From Fimbriimonadaceae bacterium (GTDB lineage: Bacteria > Armatimonadota > Fimbriimonadia > Fimbriimonadales > Fimbriimonadaceae), in NCBI GenBank assembly GCA_019638675.1, contig JAHBTE010000001.1, positions 1 through 64,000 on the forward strand: DNA of 64,000 nucleotides. The letters are read 5' to 3'. Under the pieces are notes generated by a model. That model did not search any database, was not told the origin of the DNA, and worked only from the letters and a program-made list of their open reading frames with translations. Numbering within the stretch: the stretch's first letter is position 1; each line of letters begins with the position of its first letter. The translations under genes were made by a program, and so were the position numbers. Of the stretch, positions 1,647-34,410 are shown in pieces.

Positions 1647-3260
1647 TTATTTTTCCTTTTTCAAAACCACGGTACACATTTCATTCACATAGACTTCCTT
1701 GCCTTCCAAAAACTTGCCAGATGGAACGGCGAGCATCACGATCAAAGTTCGGGAAGATGGCAGTTCATCAAAGTCTGGGTCTGCCAGTTCCCGATCCAAC
1801 ATTCCAATATGAGCGAGCCCGCGCTTTTGCACGAGAGCTGGAGTTTTGAGCTGATCATTCACCACATACGGCCAATAATGCGAAATCTCGGCCCCGATGT
1901 CCAGGTCAACTTGGCTAACTTTGAGATCGAATTCTTTGAGTTTTGTCGCCTCAGAAATTCTTAACGCGGTTCTAATCAACCGAGCGGAGGAAAGCAAGCT
2001 GGTTAATCGATAGTCGAACATCTCACCTTCGATTTCCGCCATGCCGTTGATCTCTTCAAAGGTCAAACTCTCTAAATAGTCAAGCAGTTTTTTGATGTCA
2101 GTTTCGGGCTCAATTTTGCCATCCATTTTCTTCACGCCACGCCAGTTACCAGTGAATTCGGGATAGCGCTGACCATACAGGTAAGGCACCATCCAGCCAT
2201 CTTCTGTGAGCTTCACCCGAACTTTTTTCAGTTTGTCGAACCCTTCAAGTGTTTTTGTGTATTCGGGATGGTTCCGACCAACGTCGAGCCAGGCAACTGT
2301 GTTCCACTTGTGCTTAATGGCAAGAGTCTGAAAAATATTCATCCCCTCAACTCCCCAGAAAATGGTTTGTTTTGGATTGAATTCTTCCTTAGCAAGAGAA
2401 TCCGGGACAATGTCTTTGCCTTCATTTGGATCCTCAAGCCAGCCATACGTGCTGACTGAGATTGATCCCATGAGCTTAGTCTTCGTCTTCCCGACAAGCC
2501 TCATGAAAATAGTTGCCGCCCCATATTTAGCAACTGAAAAAGTAATAGTCGGAACCGCCTCATCCACAACCATCTCGTCGTAGACGTTCTTGATTTCCGT
2601 CCACCACATCAATTCGTTCTTATCGCTAGGAGGTGCGCCATTGAACGCGTTTGCGAGGATACTTCGTGCTTCGCCTGTCACGGGCAAAACCCCTTCGCCG
2701 GATTGGGTTTGCGCCATGCGAGCCGCAAGCGATCCCGCATCGCTATTCAACAGGCAAGACATCACCGCTCGGTTTTCCGGGCGAATAAGAGAAACAAGAA
2801 CACTCCGCTCGAACATGAGACGCTCTCTTTCTTTGGTTGGAATTTGATCCATCGAAAGTTGTAGCAACCGACTCGCTTCATTGTTCAGCTCAGTAGTGGA
2901 TTTCGACCAATTCGCCCGAGCGATTTCCTGCATCTTTTGAATGCCGATTTGCAGTTTCATGCGCAGAGTCATCCCGGCATCGGAATTCGGCCCGGCGATA
3001 AAAACCTTCTTCAGCTTTTCGTCTACTTCAAAATTCAGGCAGAGTTCCTTGCAGGTTCGTTTGAGTAAAGCCAATTTATCGGTGCCTGGGTTTGAAAAAT
3101 AATAAACCATTGGGCGTTCGCCAATCGCCCGATCCATCACCAGGCGGTATTCCGAGCCTTCAAACTGCTCCGCAGCGAAATCGCCAAAAATAGACCATTC
3201 TAATTTTGGTTCAGGGGCAGTTTGCTGAACCAAAACGCTCGCTAATAAAACGCTCAGCAT
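1647..3260 (-). CDS. exported protein of unknown function, tandem paralogue A
   Basis: 537 residues starting MLSVLLASVLVQQ, a short hydrophobic stretch with no Lys or Arg before it. An in-frame TAA lies 12 bases upstream of this ATG, so no longer signal peptide is possible. The rest is soluble: a small domain to about residue 90 (MVYYFSNPG, VFIAGPN), an alpha-helical middle, and a C-terminal part ending YVNEMCTVVLKKEK. It is clearly paralogous to the gene upstream (3270-4919), sharing the N-terminus, the segment FxNPGxxxxxLxxxCxEL, and a WRGVKKMDG/WREVIGFING segment. The two are 9 bases apart and probably one operon. I recognise no known family. A periplasmic or surface role is inferred from the leader only. 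Confidence 0.7.
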   Translation of the reverse strand: MLSVLLASVLVQQTAPEPKLEWSIFGDFAAEQFEGSEYRLVMDRAIGERPMVYYFSNPGTDKLALLKRTCKELCLNFEVDEKLKKVFIAGPNSDAGMTLRMKLQIGIQKMQEIARANWSKSTTELNNEASRLLQLSMDQIPTKERERLMFERSVLVSLIRPENRAVMSCLLNSDAGSLAARMAQTQSGEGVLPVTGEARSILANAFNGAPPSDKNELMWWTEIKNVYDEMVVDEAVPTITFSVAKYGAATIFMRLVGKTKTKLMGSISVSTYGWLEDPNEGKDIVPDSLAKEEFNPKQTIFWGVEGMNIFQTLAIKHKWNTVAWLDVGRNHPEYTKTLEGFDKLKKVRVKLTEDGWMVPYLYGQRYPEFTGNWRGVKKMDGKIEPETDIKKLLDYLESLTFEEINGMAEIEGEMFDYRLTSLLSSARLIRTALRISEATKLKEFDLKVSQVDLDIGAEISHYWPYVVNDQLKTPALVQKRGLAHIGMLDRELADPDFDELPSSRTLIVMLAVPSGKFLEGKEVYVNEMCTVVLKKEK

Positions 3261-3269
3261 AATAACATT

Positions 3270-4919
3270 TTACAACCCGTTCTCTATCGGAGCCCTCGGT
3301 TTTCCAAAGTAAATTCTTACGGCATAGTACTTGAGTGGGCTCTGGTAAACGATTTCGTCACTTTCAATATGAACCGACAAGTAATCATCCACGTATTCCA
3401 ATACAATAGAAATCTGTTCTCGCTTTCGCAGATTCTCGTTTCCCTGTAAAGTTGGGTACCACTCCTTCATATGCTCATTTGCAAAGAACAAATCAAAACT
3501 ACGCCGTGCAGCACTTGATAACTCGGCAACCTTGAATCTGTTTTTATTCGGATTACCTCTAGCAATATTCTCTAATATTGCTGCCTGCACCAATAAAGGG
3601 TCAGTTTGTAGCCAAACCGCGTGATCACTAAATAGTCTTACCGGCTCAATCGCTAACTGGGCTTGAACAACCCGCTCGGGAGACCTTTTGGATAGCCATT
3701 CCTCTAGCCAATGTCTTGTAAACCCATCGACTTTAGTACCATTAATAAATCCAATTACCTCTCTCCAATCCCCAAAATATTGCGGATACAAATTATTCCT
3801 ATCGTTGATTCTTAGCCAATTATCCTCACTGATAGTGGCGTCGAATGTTTCCAGGTTAAACGAATCAACCGGGAACGACAGTGAACGGGTGGGAGGCAGT
3901 AGCCAACTCACCGAGTTACCCCTAGTTGCAAAGCAAATCTCAGCAATTGAATTAATTGTCACCGATCCGGGTGTCAGGTGTCGATCAGGGTTCTTCATCA
4001 CATCAGAAAAAATTCTAAACATTTCCTTCGTTGACATGCGTTTCAACTCGGCTTCTTGTTTAGACTCCCTGTCTACCCATGATCTCGCAAAAATTTTCGA
4101 CCGCTCCACACTAGCAATTTCAATCGTAATCTGTAGATGATCAAAACTTATTAGTTTAAACCAACACGTCACCTGATGCTCTCCAGAAATCAATTCAAAA
4201 AAATCTTTTGATTCTTTTTCTTTGCGGGCCGCAATTTCTGCACGTTCATTTTCATCGGGATTTCGCAATAGATCAAAACTGCGTCCATGCTGGAGGCCCT
4301 GCTCATACAACTTCGCCAGTTCAACTTTTGCTCGTGACCCAAGTGGAACCTGTATCCTGTGCTCTAGACTCTTTGATAACTGAGTTGCTATCGCTTCTGG
4401 CTGGATATCTAATAACTGCGCTACTTGCACCCGGCTTATTGGATTCAACTGCATTTCCAGACTAAACGCTTTTCCATGTATTATTGATTTTTCATAGTTG
4501 CTGAGATTGTCTGATCCTAATTGTCGAAGTAATTCATCTAGTTCCTTGACCGCACTCGCTTGTAAATCCAGTTCCGTAGCTGATTGTTTTCTCGCATTTA
4601 GAATGGTGGCAAGCGCACTCACCCGAATCTGTTCCGAGACTCTATCCAAGGGTCCGTTGATAAAGATTTTCTTTCTCTCTGGGTCGATGTAGCAACCCAA
4701 ATCCAACTCATCACAAGCTCGTACTAAGTCGGAAATACCATCGCCTGGATTCCCAAAATAAAAAACGACTGGGCGACCAGCAATTGTCTTACTCATATCC
4801 AGCTTGTAACCGCTATCTTTGACTAAGTCATTGGCAAAATCTTCAAATACTTTGAGCAGGAGCTTATGTTCAGGTTCACCCTGCTGAACCAAAACGCTCG
4901 CCAATAAAACGCTCAGCAT
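3270..4919 (-). CDS. exported protein of unknown function, tandem paralogue B
   Basis: 549 residues beginning MLSVLLASVLVQQ, identical over 13 residues to the downstream paralogue and likewise fixed by an in-frame TAA 12 bases upstream. It shares VVFYFGNPGDG near residue 50, the K-K-I-F-I-N-G-P strand near 85, and a similar helical middle, but the rest has diverged strongly. It is visibly more AT-rich than its neighbour. Its start is divergent from the MATE exporter, so 4920-4991 should hold both promoters. No catalytic motif is seen. The pair looks like an old tandem duplication under different selection. Function unknown. Confidence 0.7.
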   Translation of the reverse strand: MLSVLLASVLVQQGEPEHKLLLKVFEDFANDLVKDSGYKLDMSKTIAGRPVVFYFGNPGDGISDLVRACDELDLGCYIDPERKKIFINGPLDRVSEQIRVSALATILNARKQSATELDLQASAVKELDELLRQLGSDNLSNYEKSIIHGKAFSLEMQLNPISRVQVAQLLDIQPEAIATQLSKSLEHRIQVPLGSRAKVELAKLYEQGLQHGRSFDLLRNPDENERAEIAARKEKESKDFFELISGEHQVTCWFKLISFDHLQITIEIASVERSKIFARSWVDRESKQEAELKRMSTKEMFRIFSDVMKNPDRHLTPGSVTINSIAEICFATRGNSVSWLLPPTRSLSFPVDSFNLETFDATISEDNWLRINDRNNLYPQYFGDWREVIGFINGTKVDGFTRHWLEEWLSKRSPERVVQAQLAIEPVRLFSDHAVWLQTDPLLVQAAILENIARGNPNKNRFKVAELSSAARRSFDLFFANEHMKEWYPTLQGNENLRKREQISIVLEYVDDYLSVHIESDEIVYQSPLKYYAVRIYFGKPRAPIENGL

Positions 4920-15356: not shown

Positions 15357-16123
15357 GCGATCATCTCCGCGCTTTTGGGTTAAAAGCAGATAAAAAATTC
15401 GGCCAACACTGGCTCACATCAAGCAAGGTCATCGGGGCGATTCTCGCCAAAGCCGATGGCCTTGCTGGCGTTTTGGAGATCGGCCCTGGCCCGGGAATCC
15501 TCACGCAAGGATTAGCGAAACAATCAAAACTCGTTGCTATCGAATACGACGAGCGCATGATGCCTGCGGCCCAAGCTTATGCGCCGACGGCGGAAATTAT
15601 TTTCGGCGACGCCCTGCTGGTTGATTGGTCACAAATTCTAGAACGGCTGCCAAAGCCAGTCGGGATCGTCAGTAACATGCCGTACAACATCACTGGCCCA
15701 TTGCTAGAAAGAGTTTGCCAGCAAGCAAATCTGATCGACCGGGCAGTTTTGATGATGCAACGCGAAGTCGGCGATAAGATTCTTGCCAAACCAGGCGACC
15801 GGAACCGGGGTGCTTTAAGCGTTGTCATGCAGGCGACATTTGATATTTCACTTGTCTCAAAAGTCGCCCCTGGTTGCTTTTCTCCGCCACCCAAGGTGGA
15901 TAGCATCGTTCTGGATTTCCGCCCTCGTTCGGCTCCGAACCAAGCTGCGCTCAAACTCGCCCGGCAAGGATTCAGCCAACCGCGCAAAACCCTGCTCAAC
16001 AACCTCAGCGGCGTTATTGCTAAAGAAGAACTGACTTCACGCTTAGCCGACATAGGATTACACGCATCTATCCGCCCGCACGAACTAACTTACGAACACT
16101 GGGTGAGCCTTGCCGAACCATAA
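15251..16123 (+). CDS. rsmA: 16S rRNA (adenine1518-N6/1519-N6)-dimethyltransferase
   Basis: Dimethylates two adenosines near the 3' end of 16S rRNA during 30S maturation (RsmA/KsgA). Motifs: KKFGQHWL, the SAM-binding LEIGPGPGILTQGLA, VAIEYDERM, IIFGDALLVDW and the catalytic SNMPYNITGPLLE (NxPY type), followed by the family's helical C-terminal domain. The start is uncertain: GTG at 15251 or 15281 gives an extra N-terminus overlapping the previous gene by about 76-106 bases, while homology would begin near 15350 where only rare codons such as ATA occur. Its end overlaps queG by 14 bases, so the 3D, rsmA and queG genes form one operon. Confidence 0.9.
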   Translation: MHSKPKRSHAVGTTQSEGSHLHGSPHGGNGQEISLSDHLRAFGLKADKKFGQHWLTSSKVIGAILAKADGLAGVLEIGPGPGILTQGLAKQSKLVAIEYDERMMPAAQAYAPTAEIIFGDALLVDWSQILERLPKPVGIVSNMPYNITGPLLERVCQQANLIDRAVLMMQREVGDKILAKPGDRNRGALSVVMQATFDISLVSKVAPGCFSPPPKVDSIVLDFRPRSAPNQAALKLARQGFSQPRKTLLNNLSGVIAKEELTSRLADIGLHASIRPHELTYEHWVSLAEP

Positions 16124-17038
16124 GGTGCACGAGGCCGCAATGGCGTTAGGATTCGATTTAGTTGGCATCTGCGATGCCGCGCCTCCGCAATCCTTACCTG
16201 CGCTCGAAAATTGGATCGCCCACGGCATGCACGGAGAAATGGAATACATGGCCACCAGCTTGCCGCTCCGAGCCGATTTGAATACGATTCTTCCCGACGT
16301 TCAATCGGTGATCGCGGTGGGTTTGAACTACTACCAAGAACCGCCGCAATCCGACGTAAAAATCGCCCGCTATGCACTGGGCCGGGATTATCACAAAGTG
16401 ATTCGCGGCAAGCTGAAAAAACTCGCCGGAGTATTGAGTCAGGAATTTCCCAACCACCAATGGCGACCCGCTGTGGATTCGGCTCCGATCATGGAGCGCG
16501 AATACGCCAACCGCGCCGGAATTGGCTGGTTCGGAAAAAATACTTGCCTCATCAACTCCCATCGCGGATCGTGGTTTTTTATCGGCACGTTGTTGACCAC
16601 CGCCGTGCTTCCCTACGATTCGCCTGCACAAGGGGGATGCGGCACTTGCCGCGCTTGCATTGATGCTTGCCCGACAGGTGCGATTGTGCAATTGGATGGA
16701 AACTGGCAAGTCGATGCGAGGAACTGCATCAGCTATCTCACCATCGAAAAACGTGGCGAGTTTTCCGAAAAGCAATCCGAGCAGATCGGTGATTGGACGT
16801 TCGGTTGCGATATCTGTCAAGAAGTCTGCCCTTTCAACCAAACGCGCGATTCTCAGCCATTACGGGCGCAAGTCACCCGGGAGCCAGATTTCTTGAAGGT
16901 ACGGCAGTTTTCTGGCCTGCAACAACTGACCCAAATTTCGGACGATGATTGGGATGAACTCTCGCAGTCCTCACCAATCCGCCGAGCAAGAAAGTCTGGC
17001 ATTGAGCGAAACGCACGCGCTAATTTGAAAAACAGGAG

Positions 17039-17042
<4 letters not shown>
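16110..17042 (+). CDS. queG: epoxyqueuosine reductase
   Basis: 310 residues. QueG reduces epoxyqueuosine to queuosine in tRNA using cobalamin and two [4Fe-4S] clusters. Seen: the cobalamin-binding N-terminal region with HGEMEYMATSLPLRADL and SVIAVGLNYYQ, the typical RYALGRDYHKVIRGKL near 88, DSAPIMEREYANRAGIGWFG near 127 with the conserved Asp, and ferredoxin-like clusters CGTCRACIDACPTGA near 176 and FGCDICQEVCPFN near 230. It starts at TTG 16110 inside the end of rsmA. It has fewer C-terminal repeats than longer QueG proteins. A queuosine pathway is also indicated by tgt at 32483. It converges with the glycosylase gene, overlapping by 4 bases. Confidence 0.94.
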
Positions 17043-19962
<2,920 letters not shown>

Positions 19963-32482: not shown

Positions 32483-33589
32483 CTACGCATGGGCGTAACG
32501 GGCCATTAATTCGGGCCAAGTACCCTGCTCAATCGCATCCCGGATTTCTTGCATCATCCGCGAATAAAACCAAAGGTTGTGCAAACTTGCCAACCGAGCT
32601 CCCAGAGGTTCTCCTGCTTTGAAAAGGTGCCTGACATACGCGGCGGAATACCGCTCGGTTGGCGGAAAAACTGAATCCTCATCGAACCACCCTTTATGCT
32701 CCGCCCACTGCAGATTCATCGCGTTCACACGCCCTTGCATTGTGTATAAAGCGTGGTGGCGGGCCATTCTAGTTGGCAATACGCAATCGAAAAGGTCTAC
32801 TCCACATTTAACAGCGTGGAGGATATCTTGCGGATGACCAACTCCCATCAAGTAGCGGGGCTTGTCTTTAGGTAATAGAGGTGCTGTGAATTGCACAACC
32901 GGATACTGCATTTCGGTTGGTTCGCCTACACTCACACCTCCAATCGCAACACCATCAAACGGCATTTCGCTCACAACCTGTGCCGATTCCCGCCGTAAAT
33001 CTTCGTGAACTCCCCCTTGCACGATTCCAAACAAGTTGGTGCGTTCCCCTTTTGCGGCGAGGTTCCGAGGAAGCCACTTATGAGTGCGTTCCATTGCTCG
33101 AGCGGCTTCTTCTCGCGTGCAAGGATACGGCGGGCATTCATCCAAACACATAGCGATGTCCACGCCGAGTTTGCTCTGAATTTCCATTGATTTTTCGGGA
33201 GTTAGGAATAGTTCACTGCCATCCAAATGACTTTTGAAAACCACGCCTTCATCACTGATTTTGCGCCACTTGCTAAGGCTCATGACTTGATATCCGCCGC
33301 TGTCGGTTAAGATCGGCCCGCGCCAGCTCATCAGTTCATGGAGCCCGCCAAATCTTTCGACTAAGTCTTCCCCTGGTCTCAAAGACAAATGATATGTATT
33401 GGCAAGAACTTGCTGAAACCCAGCCGCTTCTAAATCTTCGCTTCCTACCGTTTTCACACTGCCTTGAGTGCCAACTGGCATAAAAGCAGGAGTTTCTACT
33501 GTTCCGTGTGCCGTGTGAATCCGACCGCGACGCGCACCCGTATGAGGGCAAGTCGCAAGAAGTTCGTAGCGGAGCGGAAATTCGGACAC
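32483..33589 (-). CDS. tgt: tRNA-guanine transglycosylase lacking three zinc cysteines
   Basis: 368 residues. Tgt exchanges guanine 34 in certain tRNAs for the queuosine precursor. Catalytic parts are intact: LTDSGGYQVMSL with Asp96, the nucleophile Asp268 in LFDCVLPTR, GHPQDILHAV and GIVQGGVHEDLR. The usual zinc site CxCxxC with a later His is broken: the positions matching Cys318, Cys320 and Cys323 of the Zymomonas enzyme are Ser306, Phe308 and Thr311 here (offset 12), while His337 in SLHNLWFY remains. So it probably folds without zinc. Partner for queG at 16110. Start ATG at 33589. Confidence 0.93.
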   Translation of the reverse strand: MSEFPLRYELLATCPHTGARRGRIHTAHGTVETPAFMPVGTQGSVKTVGSEDLEAAGFQQVLANTYHLSLRPGEDLVERFGGLHELMSWRGPILTDSGGYQVMSLSKWRKISDEGVVFKSHLDGSELFLTPEKSMEIQSKLGVDIAMCLDECPPYPCTREEAARAMERTHKWLPRNLAAKGERTNLFGIVQGGVHEDLRRESAQVVSEMPFDGVAIGGVSVGEPTEMQYPVVQFTAPLLPKDKPRYLMGVGHPQDILHAVKCGVDLFDCVLPTRMARHHALYTMQGRVNAMNLQWAEHKGWFDEDSVFPPTERYSAAYVRHLFKAGEPLGARLASLHNLWFYSRMMQEIRDAIEQGTWPELMARYAHA

Positions 33590-33687: not shown

Positions 33688-34410
33688 TTATTTCTTGCGT
33701 CGTCGAGCGACTGCCAAACCAAGACCGGCTAAAACTGCCATAGTCGCTGGCTCGGGGACTGCTTCCGTTCCAGAGACAGTCACCATATCCCATCGCAAAG
33801 TTCCGGTTGTTGCATAGGAACTGCCGGAATTAGAAGGTGAATACTGACCAGCAACAACGATGTTCGGATCAAACACCGCAACCATACGGAACACGAAGTT
33901 TGCATTGTTGTCCACGCTTGAATCAGAGGAAAGATCGTTTAGGTTAAGGTTAAACCAGGTGTCACCTGCATTCCCATCCAGGAGAGCACCTTCTGTCCAA
34001 GTAGTGCCGCCGTTTGCCGAGTAATCAAATCGGGTGAAACGGCTAGAAGTATTACTTTTACGAACATCAAAGCTCACCATGATGTCTTCATAGCCCACAG
34101 TGGAAACCGCAAACTGAACACCACGTTGACCATTTTCTGTTCCTTGAGCTGCATAACCAGTGGTTTGCCAACCGAAGTTTGGTGGTGAGGTGGTCACAGG
34201 ATCGCTTGATCCACCGTTAGCAACACCGGACGAAAAGCTGCCAGTGGCGCCAAGCAAAGAAGCAGTGCCTAAACCGATGCTAGCTGTCGGACTAGATACT
34301 CCCCCTGGAACCGTGGATGAGCTTGTGCCGTTAAAATCCCACTGAGTGATGATTCCAGCTTGAGAAGCGCCAGCGACCAGCACGGCACCTAGAGTCAAAA
34401 TTGATTTCAT
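33688..34410 (-). CDS. PEP-CTERM sorting-signal protein
   Basis: 240 residues. Signal peptide MKSILTLGAVLVAGASQAG at the N-terminus; beta-rich Ser/Thr/Gly body (DFNGTSSSTVPGGVSSPTAS, FDYSANGGTTWTEGALLDGN, NANFVFRMVAVFDPNI) resembling other exported exosortase-sorted proteins; C-terminal PEP-CTERM tail VPEPATMAVLAGLGLAVARR with a hydrophobic helix and a basic end (RRRKK). The tail would be recognised by exosortase for transfer and anchoring at the surface. No exosortase gene lies in the window. A hairpin in its leader (34420-34468) may hide its ribosome binding site, and a strong terminator follows. Confidence 0.9.
   Translation of the reverse strand: MKSILTLGAVLVAGASQAGIITQWDFNGTSSSTVPGGVSSPTASIGLGTASLLGATGSFSSGVANGGSSDPVTTSPPNFGWQTTGYAAQGTENGQRGVQFAVSTVGYEDIMVSFDVRKSNTSSRFTRFDYSANGGTTWTEGALLDGNAGDTWFNLNLNDLSSDSSVDNNANFVFRMVAVFDPNIVVAGQYSPSNSGSSYATTGTLRWDMVTVSGTEAVPEPATMAVLAGLGLAVARRRKK

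Follow-up and report, generated by a model that had tools for sequence, protein, structure and literature searches.

The tRNA-guanine transglycosylase (Tgt) encoded in the window, by which we mean the whole 64,000-nucleotide stretch of DNA that was analysed, lacks the three cysteines that bind zinc in the well-known enzyme. The variant is real and clade-wide. We are fairly confident that it is, by descent and by its active site, a preQ1-inserting Tgt, and that its zinc site disappeared a single time, in an ancestor shared by two Fimbriimonadales families, with side-chain packing taking its place. A separate loss of the same site in Bacteroidota is the new and more general result.

The tgt gene (32483..33589, minus strand) has a GTG start and encodes 368 amino acids. 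In a profile search with TIGR00430 (Q_tRNA_tgt, an equivalog family; cut-off 306.75), residues 8-365 scored 450 bits. The preliminary description of this DNA had called the enzyme full length, which agrees with this match and with the full length of the 88 related sequences introduced below. With phmmer, residues 17-361 were aligned to the Tgt of Zymomonas mobilis, and the motif region is free of gaps, which fits the constant offset of 12 to the Z. mobilis numbering that had been noted before. Directly upstream of tgt lies a gene for a PEP-CTERM protein (33688-34410, minus strand). At another place in the window, two neighbouring open reading frames on the minus strand (1647-3260 and 3270-4919) have products that share their first 13 residues, and they are likely a tandem duplication of genes for secreted proteins.

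The CxCxxC...H zinc tetrad (CCCH) was sought in the window Tgt and in the 88 readable Tgts of the two families, which we call the clade. The window enzyme has SFT-H instead, and at most one of the three cysteines is found in any of the 88 rows. Ser306 (codon 32672..32674, minus strand, as are all codons of this gene) is at the position of ligand 1, Z. mobilis Cys318, and is Ser in 84/88 rows. Phe308 (32666..32668) replaces ligand 2, Cys320, and is Phe in 87/88 rows. Thr311 (32657..32659) replaces ligand 3, Cys323; this position is looser, with Thr in 65/88 rows, while the other two former ligand positions are constrained. His337 (32579..32581), ligand 4, is retained in 88/88 rows. The catalytic residues Asp96 (33302..33304; Asp102 in Z. 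mobilis) and Asp268 (32786..32788; Asp280 in Z. mobilis) are likewise Asp in 88/88. Hence, the alignment confirms both the three replacements and the intact His337, Asp96 and Asp268 that had been read from the window alone.

Of 113 genomes searched in the class, 108 gave a Tgt match. Every one of the 88 Tgts of the two families that are readable in their C-terminal part is without the site, 82 from the window's own family (f1, Fimbriimonadaceae or very near it, Armatimonadota, spanning 32 genera) and six from a second family (f2). All three cysteines are gone in 85 of these, and one is left in the remaining three; the median pairwise identity of the 88 rows is 70%. The other families of the same order (f3, f4 and f5) keep CCCH in 17/17 readable rows, and other Armatimonadota in 46/46 Tgts examined, a sample made up of 26 of the best-scoring loci and 20 picked from lower-scoring ones. 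Chance or sequencing error does not account for the change, as the site is absent from every readable Tgt of two families. The preliminary description had proposed an alignment with Tgts from Armatimonadota and other phyla, and this alignment makes the loss a trait of a whole clade and not of one gene.

Several loci were excluded from these counts. L107 and L109 are fragments, L108 has no usable frame, and the match of the G052 Tgt ends at profile position 262; duplicates (window protein against L001, L117, L118, L127 and L197-L201) were also removed. The f3 rows L110 and L111 are without the C-terminal part. L014, on contig 25 of an f1 genome (G083, 73% complete), is a CCCH Tgt that stands beside the ligand-less copy of the same genome. 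In the tree it clusters with a Tgt from a deltaproteobacterium (SH-aLRT 90), which points to contamination or transfer, and we left it out as a likely contaminant. In three g32 genomes, tgt lies within an 864-aa open frame, which we considered as a possible fusion. The added part is rich in R, G and A with no domain recognised by eye, and it is probably merely an open frame in GC-rich DNA. One f3 genome (G109, 94% complete) has QueA and no Tgt match at E 0.001, which may reflect a hole in the assembly or a pathway that truly lacks this step.

The number of losses was read from trees. In a 100-row tree from which the site columns had been removed, f1 and f2 form one clade (SH-aLRT 99), nested inside the CCCH families f4 and f5 (SH-aLRT 96 and 95). 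The tree without these columns shows a single loss within Fimbriimonadales. The Bacteroidota losses sit elsewhere on it, and a minimum of four changes is needed in total. A 294-row FastTree requires seven changes, three of them forced by well-supported branches. From these counts, the site was lost at least twice overall, and probably more than twice.

A scan across phyla with one genome per species gave 80 loci, three of them from Fimbriimonadales. CCCH is present in 75 of the other 77; the two exceptions are from Rufibacter psychrotolerans (L184) and from a bacterial MAG (L176). Among Bacteroidota, Tgt was found in 291/296 genomes searched and QueA in 295/296. Five genomes of this phylum (G157, G264, G312, G316 and G401) have QueA and no Tgt match at E 0.001, either through their assembly or as a real pathway gap. 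Of 70 Bacteroidota Tgt loci examined, 28 are without the site and 42 have it; the sample was not random, as it comprised the 30 best-scoring loci, which are CCCH throughout, and 40 chosen at successively lower ranks among the matches listed, of which 28 lack the site and 12 are CCCH. The loss is common in Bacteroidota, although this sampling gives no frequency.

The replacements in the ligand-less Bacteroidota enzymes are mostly Phe at the position of 306, then Ser, Asn or Thr at 308, and often Cys at 311. The His ligand is also gone in 7/30 ligand-less Bacteroidota-type rows. Two loci, L246 (G147) and L270 (G336), have lost all four ligands (LRSQ) and keep both catalytic Asp residues. A further four (L240, L248, L251 and L262) form a tight group that reads FNC-Q where the zinc ligands would be and sits on a long branch (0.53, SH-aLRT 100).

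A loss of this kind could mean that the gene is a non-functional or decaying relic that makes no queuosine. Three of four residues are gone from a site held to be needed, and PMC9508795 states that zinc is required for TGT activity. Against this, 13 close pairs of clade members were compared, and the 11 of them that are not saturated give dN/dS values of 0.027-0.062; the 88 rows are full length and the catalytic residues are invariant. QueA and QueG are kept across the class, and the genome of the window has no second Tgt, its single PF01702 match (at 98% completeness) being the window Tgt itself; this rules out, for this genome, an additional Tgt of the zinc type that could take over the function. 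A dead enzyme would not be maintained in this way, given the low dN/dS, the invariant residues and the retained QueA and QueG, and we regard a relic as highly improbable. Decay of a single gene is ruled out by the clade-wide conservation together with dN/dS. The preliminary view that this is not a decaying gene thus stands, with the fixed replacements across the clade, the low dN/dS, the single copy, the retained QueA and QueG and an ordered loop in the structure model all in its favour.

The residues of the active site and of the dimer interface agree with this. Cys152 and Val221 of the substrate pocket, which have a role in the use of preQ1, are each found in 88/88 rows, as are the two catalytic Asp residues. 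At the dimer interface, Tyr318 and His321 are present in 88/88 rows and Tyr314 in 85/88. These residues correspond to the Z. mobilis hot-spots Trp326 (Tyr314), Tyr330 (Tyr318) and His333 (His321), as given in PMC5395182. The fourth hot-spot, Phe92 of Z. mobilis, is Leu86 in the window Tgt; in the clade it is Phe in 77/88 rows and Leu in 11/88. The dimer patch that adjoins the old zinc site seems to be intact.

Most of the queuosine genes that we looked for are present in the window's own genome, as judged from profile matches. The last queuosine step is represented in the window itself by queG, epoxyqueuosine reductase (16110..17042, plus strand). This gene, which had been placed at 16110 before, is real: it carries PF08331 (QueG_DUF1730) and PF13484 (double 4Fe-4S domain), and TIGR00276 matches it with 302 bits at C1:16128-17045. 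The same genome also has QueA, QueF and QueC. Its QueD is uncertain, because the two QueD-like genes score 83.5 and 66.4, below the QueD cut-off of 89.25. One QueD/PTPS-like locus (L322, C1:1542219-1542854) is an open frame of 280 aa made up of two QueD/PTPS-like halves in tandem, and a single QueD/PTPS-like gene lies at C1:1893076-1893393. QueA and QueG matches occur in 88/88 genomes of the class with at least 90% completeness, where the QueG tally counts any match at E 0.001; above the family cut-off, QueG is found in 101/113 genomes. For a few genomes the QueG match is weak or truncated where a contig ends, and that of the f3 genome G110, with 19.6 bits only, is not convincing. QueA acts on the product of Tgt, and the fact that it has been kept speaks for the formation of preQ1-tRNA.

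An active enzyme might also have been retargeted to another tRNA position, to DNA or to queuine salvage, with the loss of the zinc loop tied to the new substrate. In favour of such a shift, the clade has other changes of its own: His252 (32834-32836) is found in 84/88 rows and His279 (32753-32755) in 73/88, and both are nearly confined to the ligand-less Fimbriimonadales Tgts, with 0-2 rows in any CCCH group. However, Val221 and Cys152 are invariant, and QueF, QueC, QueA and QueG are present as in the ordinary route. The archaeosine Tgt profile TIGR00432 gives 145.6 for the window Tgt, far below its cut-off of 350. We therefore assign retargeting a very low probability.

A metal could still be bound at a rebuilt site made of His337 and new ligands, such as His298, Asp303 or Cys and His residues from elsewhere in the protein (Cys14, His16). 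The invariance of His337 (88/88) fits a residual metal site too. His298 is new in 56/88 clade rows and occurs in 11/30 ligand-less Bacteroidota-type rows, with 0/17 in f3-f5 and 0/75 in the cross-phylum CCCH rows; Cys14 is present in 78/87 clade rows. Yet His298 is absent from 32/88 rows, positions 290-313 contain neither Cys nor His in 21/88 rows, and the His ligand itself has gone from some of the Bacteroidota-type rows, as described above. Cys14 is also found in 16/75 cross-phylum CCCH rows and is thus unrelated to the loss of the site. Replacement Cys and His residues were sought by conservation only, and those conserved outside the old site are Cys14, His252 and His279. Because so many rows lack a Cys or His near the loop, His298 is patchy and Cys14 is shared with CCCH enzymes, a rebuilt site common to the clade is unlikely, and we consider metal binding of this kind doubtful for the window Tgt as well.

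Avoidance of zinc throughout the organism was considered and is unsupported by the few proteins compared: the Cys clusters are retained in ribosomal protein L36, in the NAD-dependent DNA ligase (17920-19938) and in QueC. The ribosomal protein S14 belongs to the type that has just two Cys, which is also present in E. coli.

A working, zinc-free Tgt, the reading that the preliminary description had reached, is the best-supported one, and we infer both halves of it. The window Tgt is very probably active, and it is probably metal-free at the old zinc site.

The AlphaFold2 model of the window Tgt has a confidently placed loop at the old zinc site. Its mean pLDDT is 93.7, with 94 for residues 301-310 and 96 for residues 311-320; the low point is 68, at residues 101-110. 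The best Foldseek match of the model is the Z. mobilis Tgt (1efz), with a TM-score of 0.95 and an rmsd of 1.4, and the TIM barrel and C-terminal subdomain are present as in solved Tgts. We propose that the C-terminal subdomain had already given up its structural zinc site in the last ancestor that f1 and f2 share. Phe308 most likely fills the place of the metal, which would lock the loop without it, and Ser306 and Thr311 would form hydrogen bonds toward His337. Trp295, which replaces Tyr, Phe or His, perhaps packs against the loop. Dimerisation would still occur through the aromatic patch after the motif, and the enzyme would be active and insert preQ1 into tRNA.

Trp295 (codon 32705..32707) lies just ahead of the loop. 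Trp is found at this position in 99/118 ligand-less and 4/176 CCCH Tgts, and the pattern is seen in both Fimbriimonadales and Bacteroidota, with 21/30 of the ligand-less Bacteroidota-type rows. In a convergence test, only three independent pairs on well-supported branches were available; a mean of 1.9 agree and 0.0 oppose, which is not significant (median p 0.5). Hence, a tie between Trp295 and the loss of the zinc site is suggestive only.

Taking both phyla together, we lean modestly toward a broader interpretation, in which zinc is a replaceable fold-lock outside catalysis. Fimbriimonadales and Bacteroidota would each have dropped it, the latter perhaps more than once, which makes two losses or more; a small core of aromatic residues (Phe in the place of ligand 2 or 1, and Trp295) would stand in for the metal, and a large share of queuosine-making bacteria would run a metal-free Tgt in a metal-hungry pathway. 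If whole families work without zinc, the role of the metal can be tested by comparing natural zinc-free and zinc-bound Tgts. The finding also bears on the idea of zinc-dependent queuosine synthesis, as many Bacteroidota may have dropped this dependence at the Tgt step.

Published accounts take the zinc site to be a defining feature of the enzyme and a requirement for its activity. PMC6165067 names the barrel and the zinc domain as the two hallmarks of TGTs, and in PMC4425180 the residues that bind zinc are counted among the highly conserved ones; the excerpt of PMC10570037 contains nothing on zinc. By title or opening of the abstract, no report of a Tgt without zinc ligands was found in the literature searched, a body outside which most subscription journals lie; protein databases may show the missing residues uncommented.

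Among known systems, the closest is the tRNA-guanine(34) transglycosylase of Z. mobilis and E. coli (EC 2.4.2.29, TIGR00430). The window Tgt shares with it the fold (TM 0.95), the catalytic Asp pair, Cys152, Val221, the Tyr/Tyr/His dimer patch, and queA and queG in the genome. It differs in the three zinc-binding cysteines, of whose site only the His is left. The eukaryotic QTRT1 and QTRT2 belong to the same superfamily and share the barrel; unlike the window Tgt, both keep the zinc site, according to PMC6165067. The bacterial glutamyl-tRNA synthetase, as described in PMC4381286, is another tRNA enzyme with a structural zinc site that many bacteria lack; its putative zinc-binding domain is then locked by side-chain contacts, with the fold and the function preserved, and zinc loss within one protein family is there said to be rarely observed. 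It is a different enzyme with a different fold, and its zinc-free domain works by experiment, whereas for Tgt this is deduced. The ligand-less Bacteroidota Tgts, such as that of Rufibacter psychrotolerans (L184), are the same protein with the same lost site, and they share the catalytic Asp residues, QueA and the frequent Trp295. They differ from the window Tgt in their separate losses and other replacement residues, and some of them have given up the His as well.
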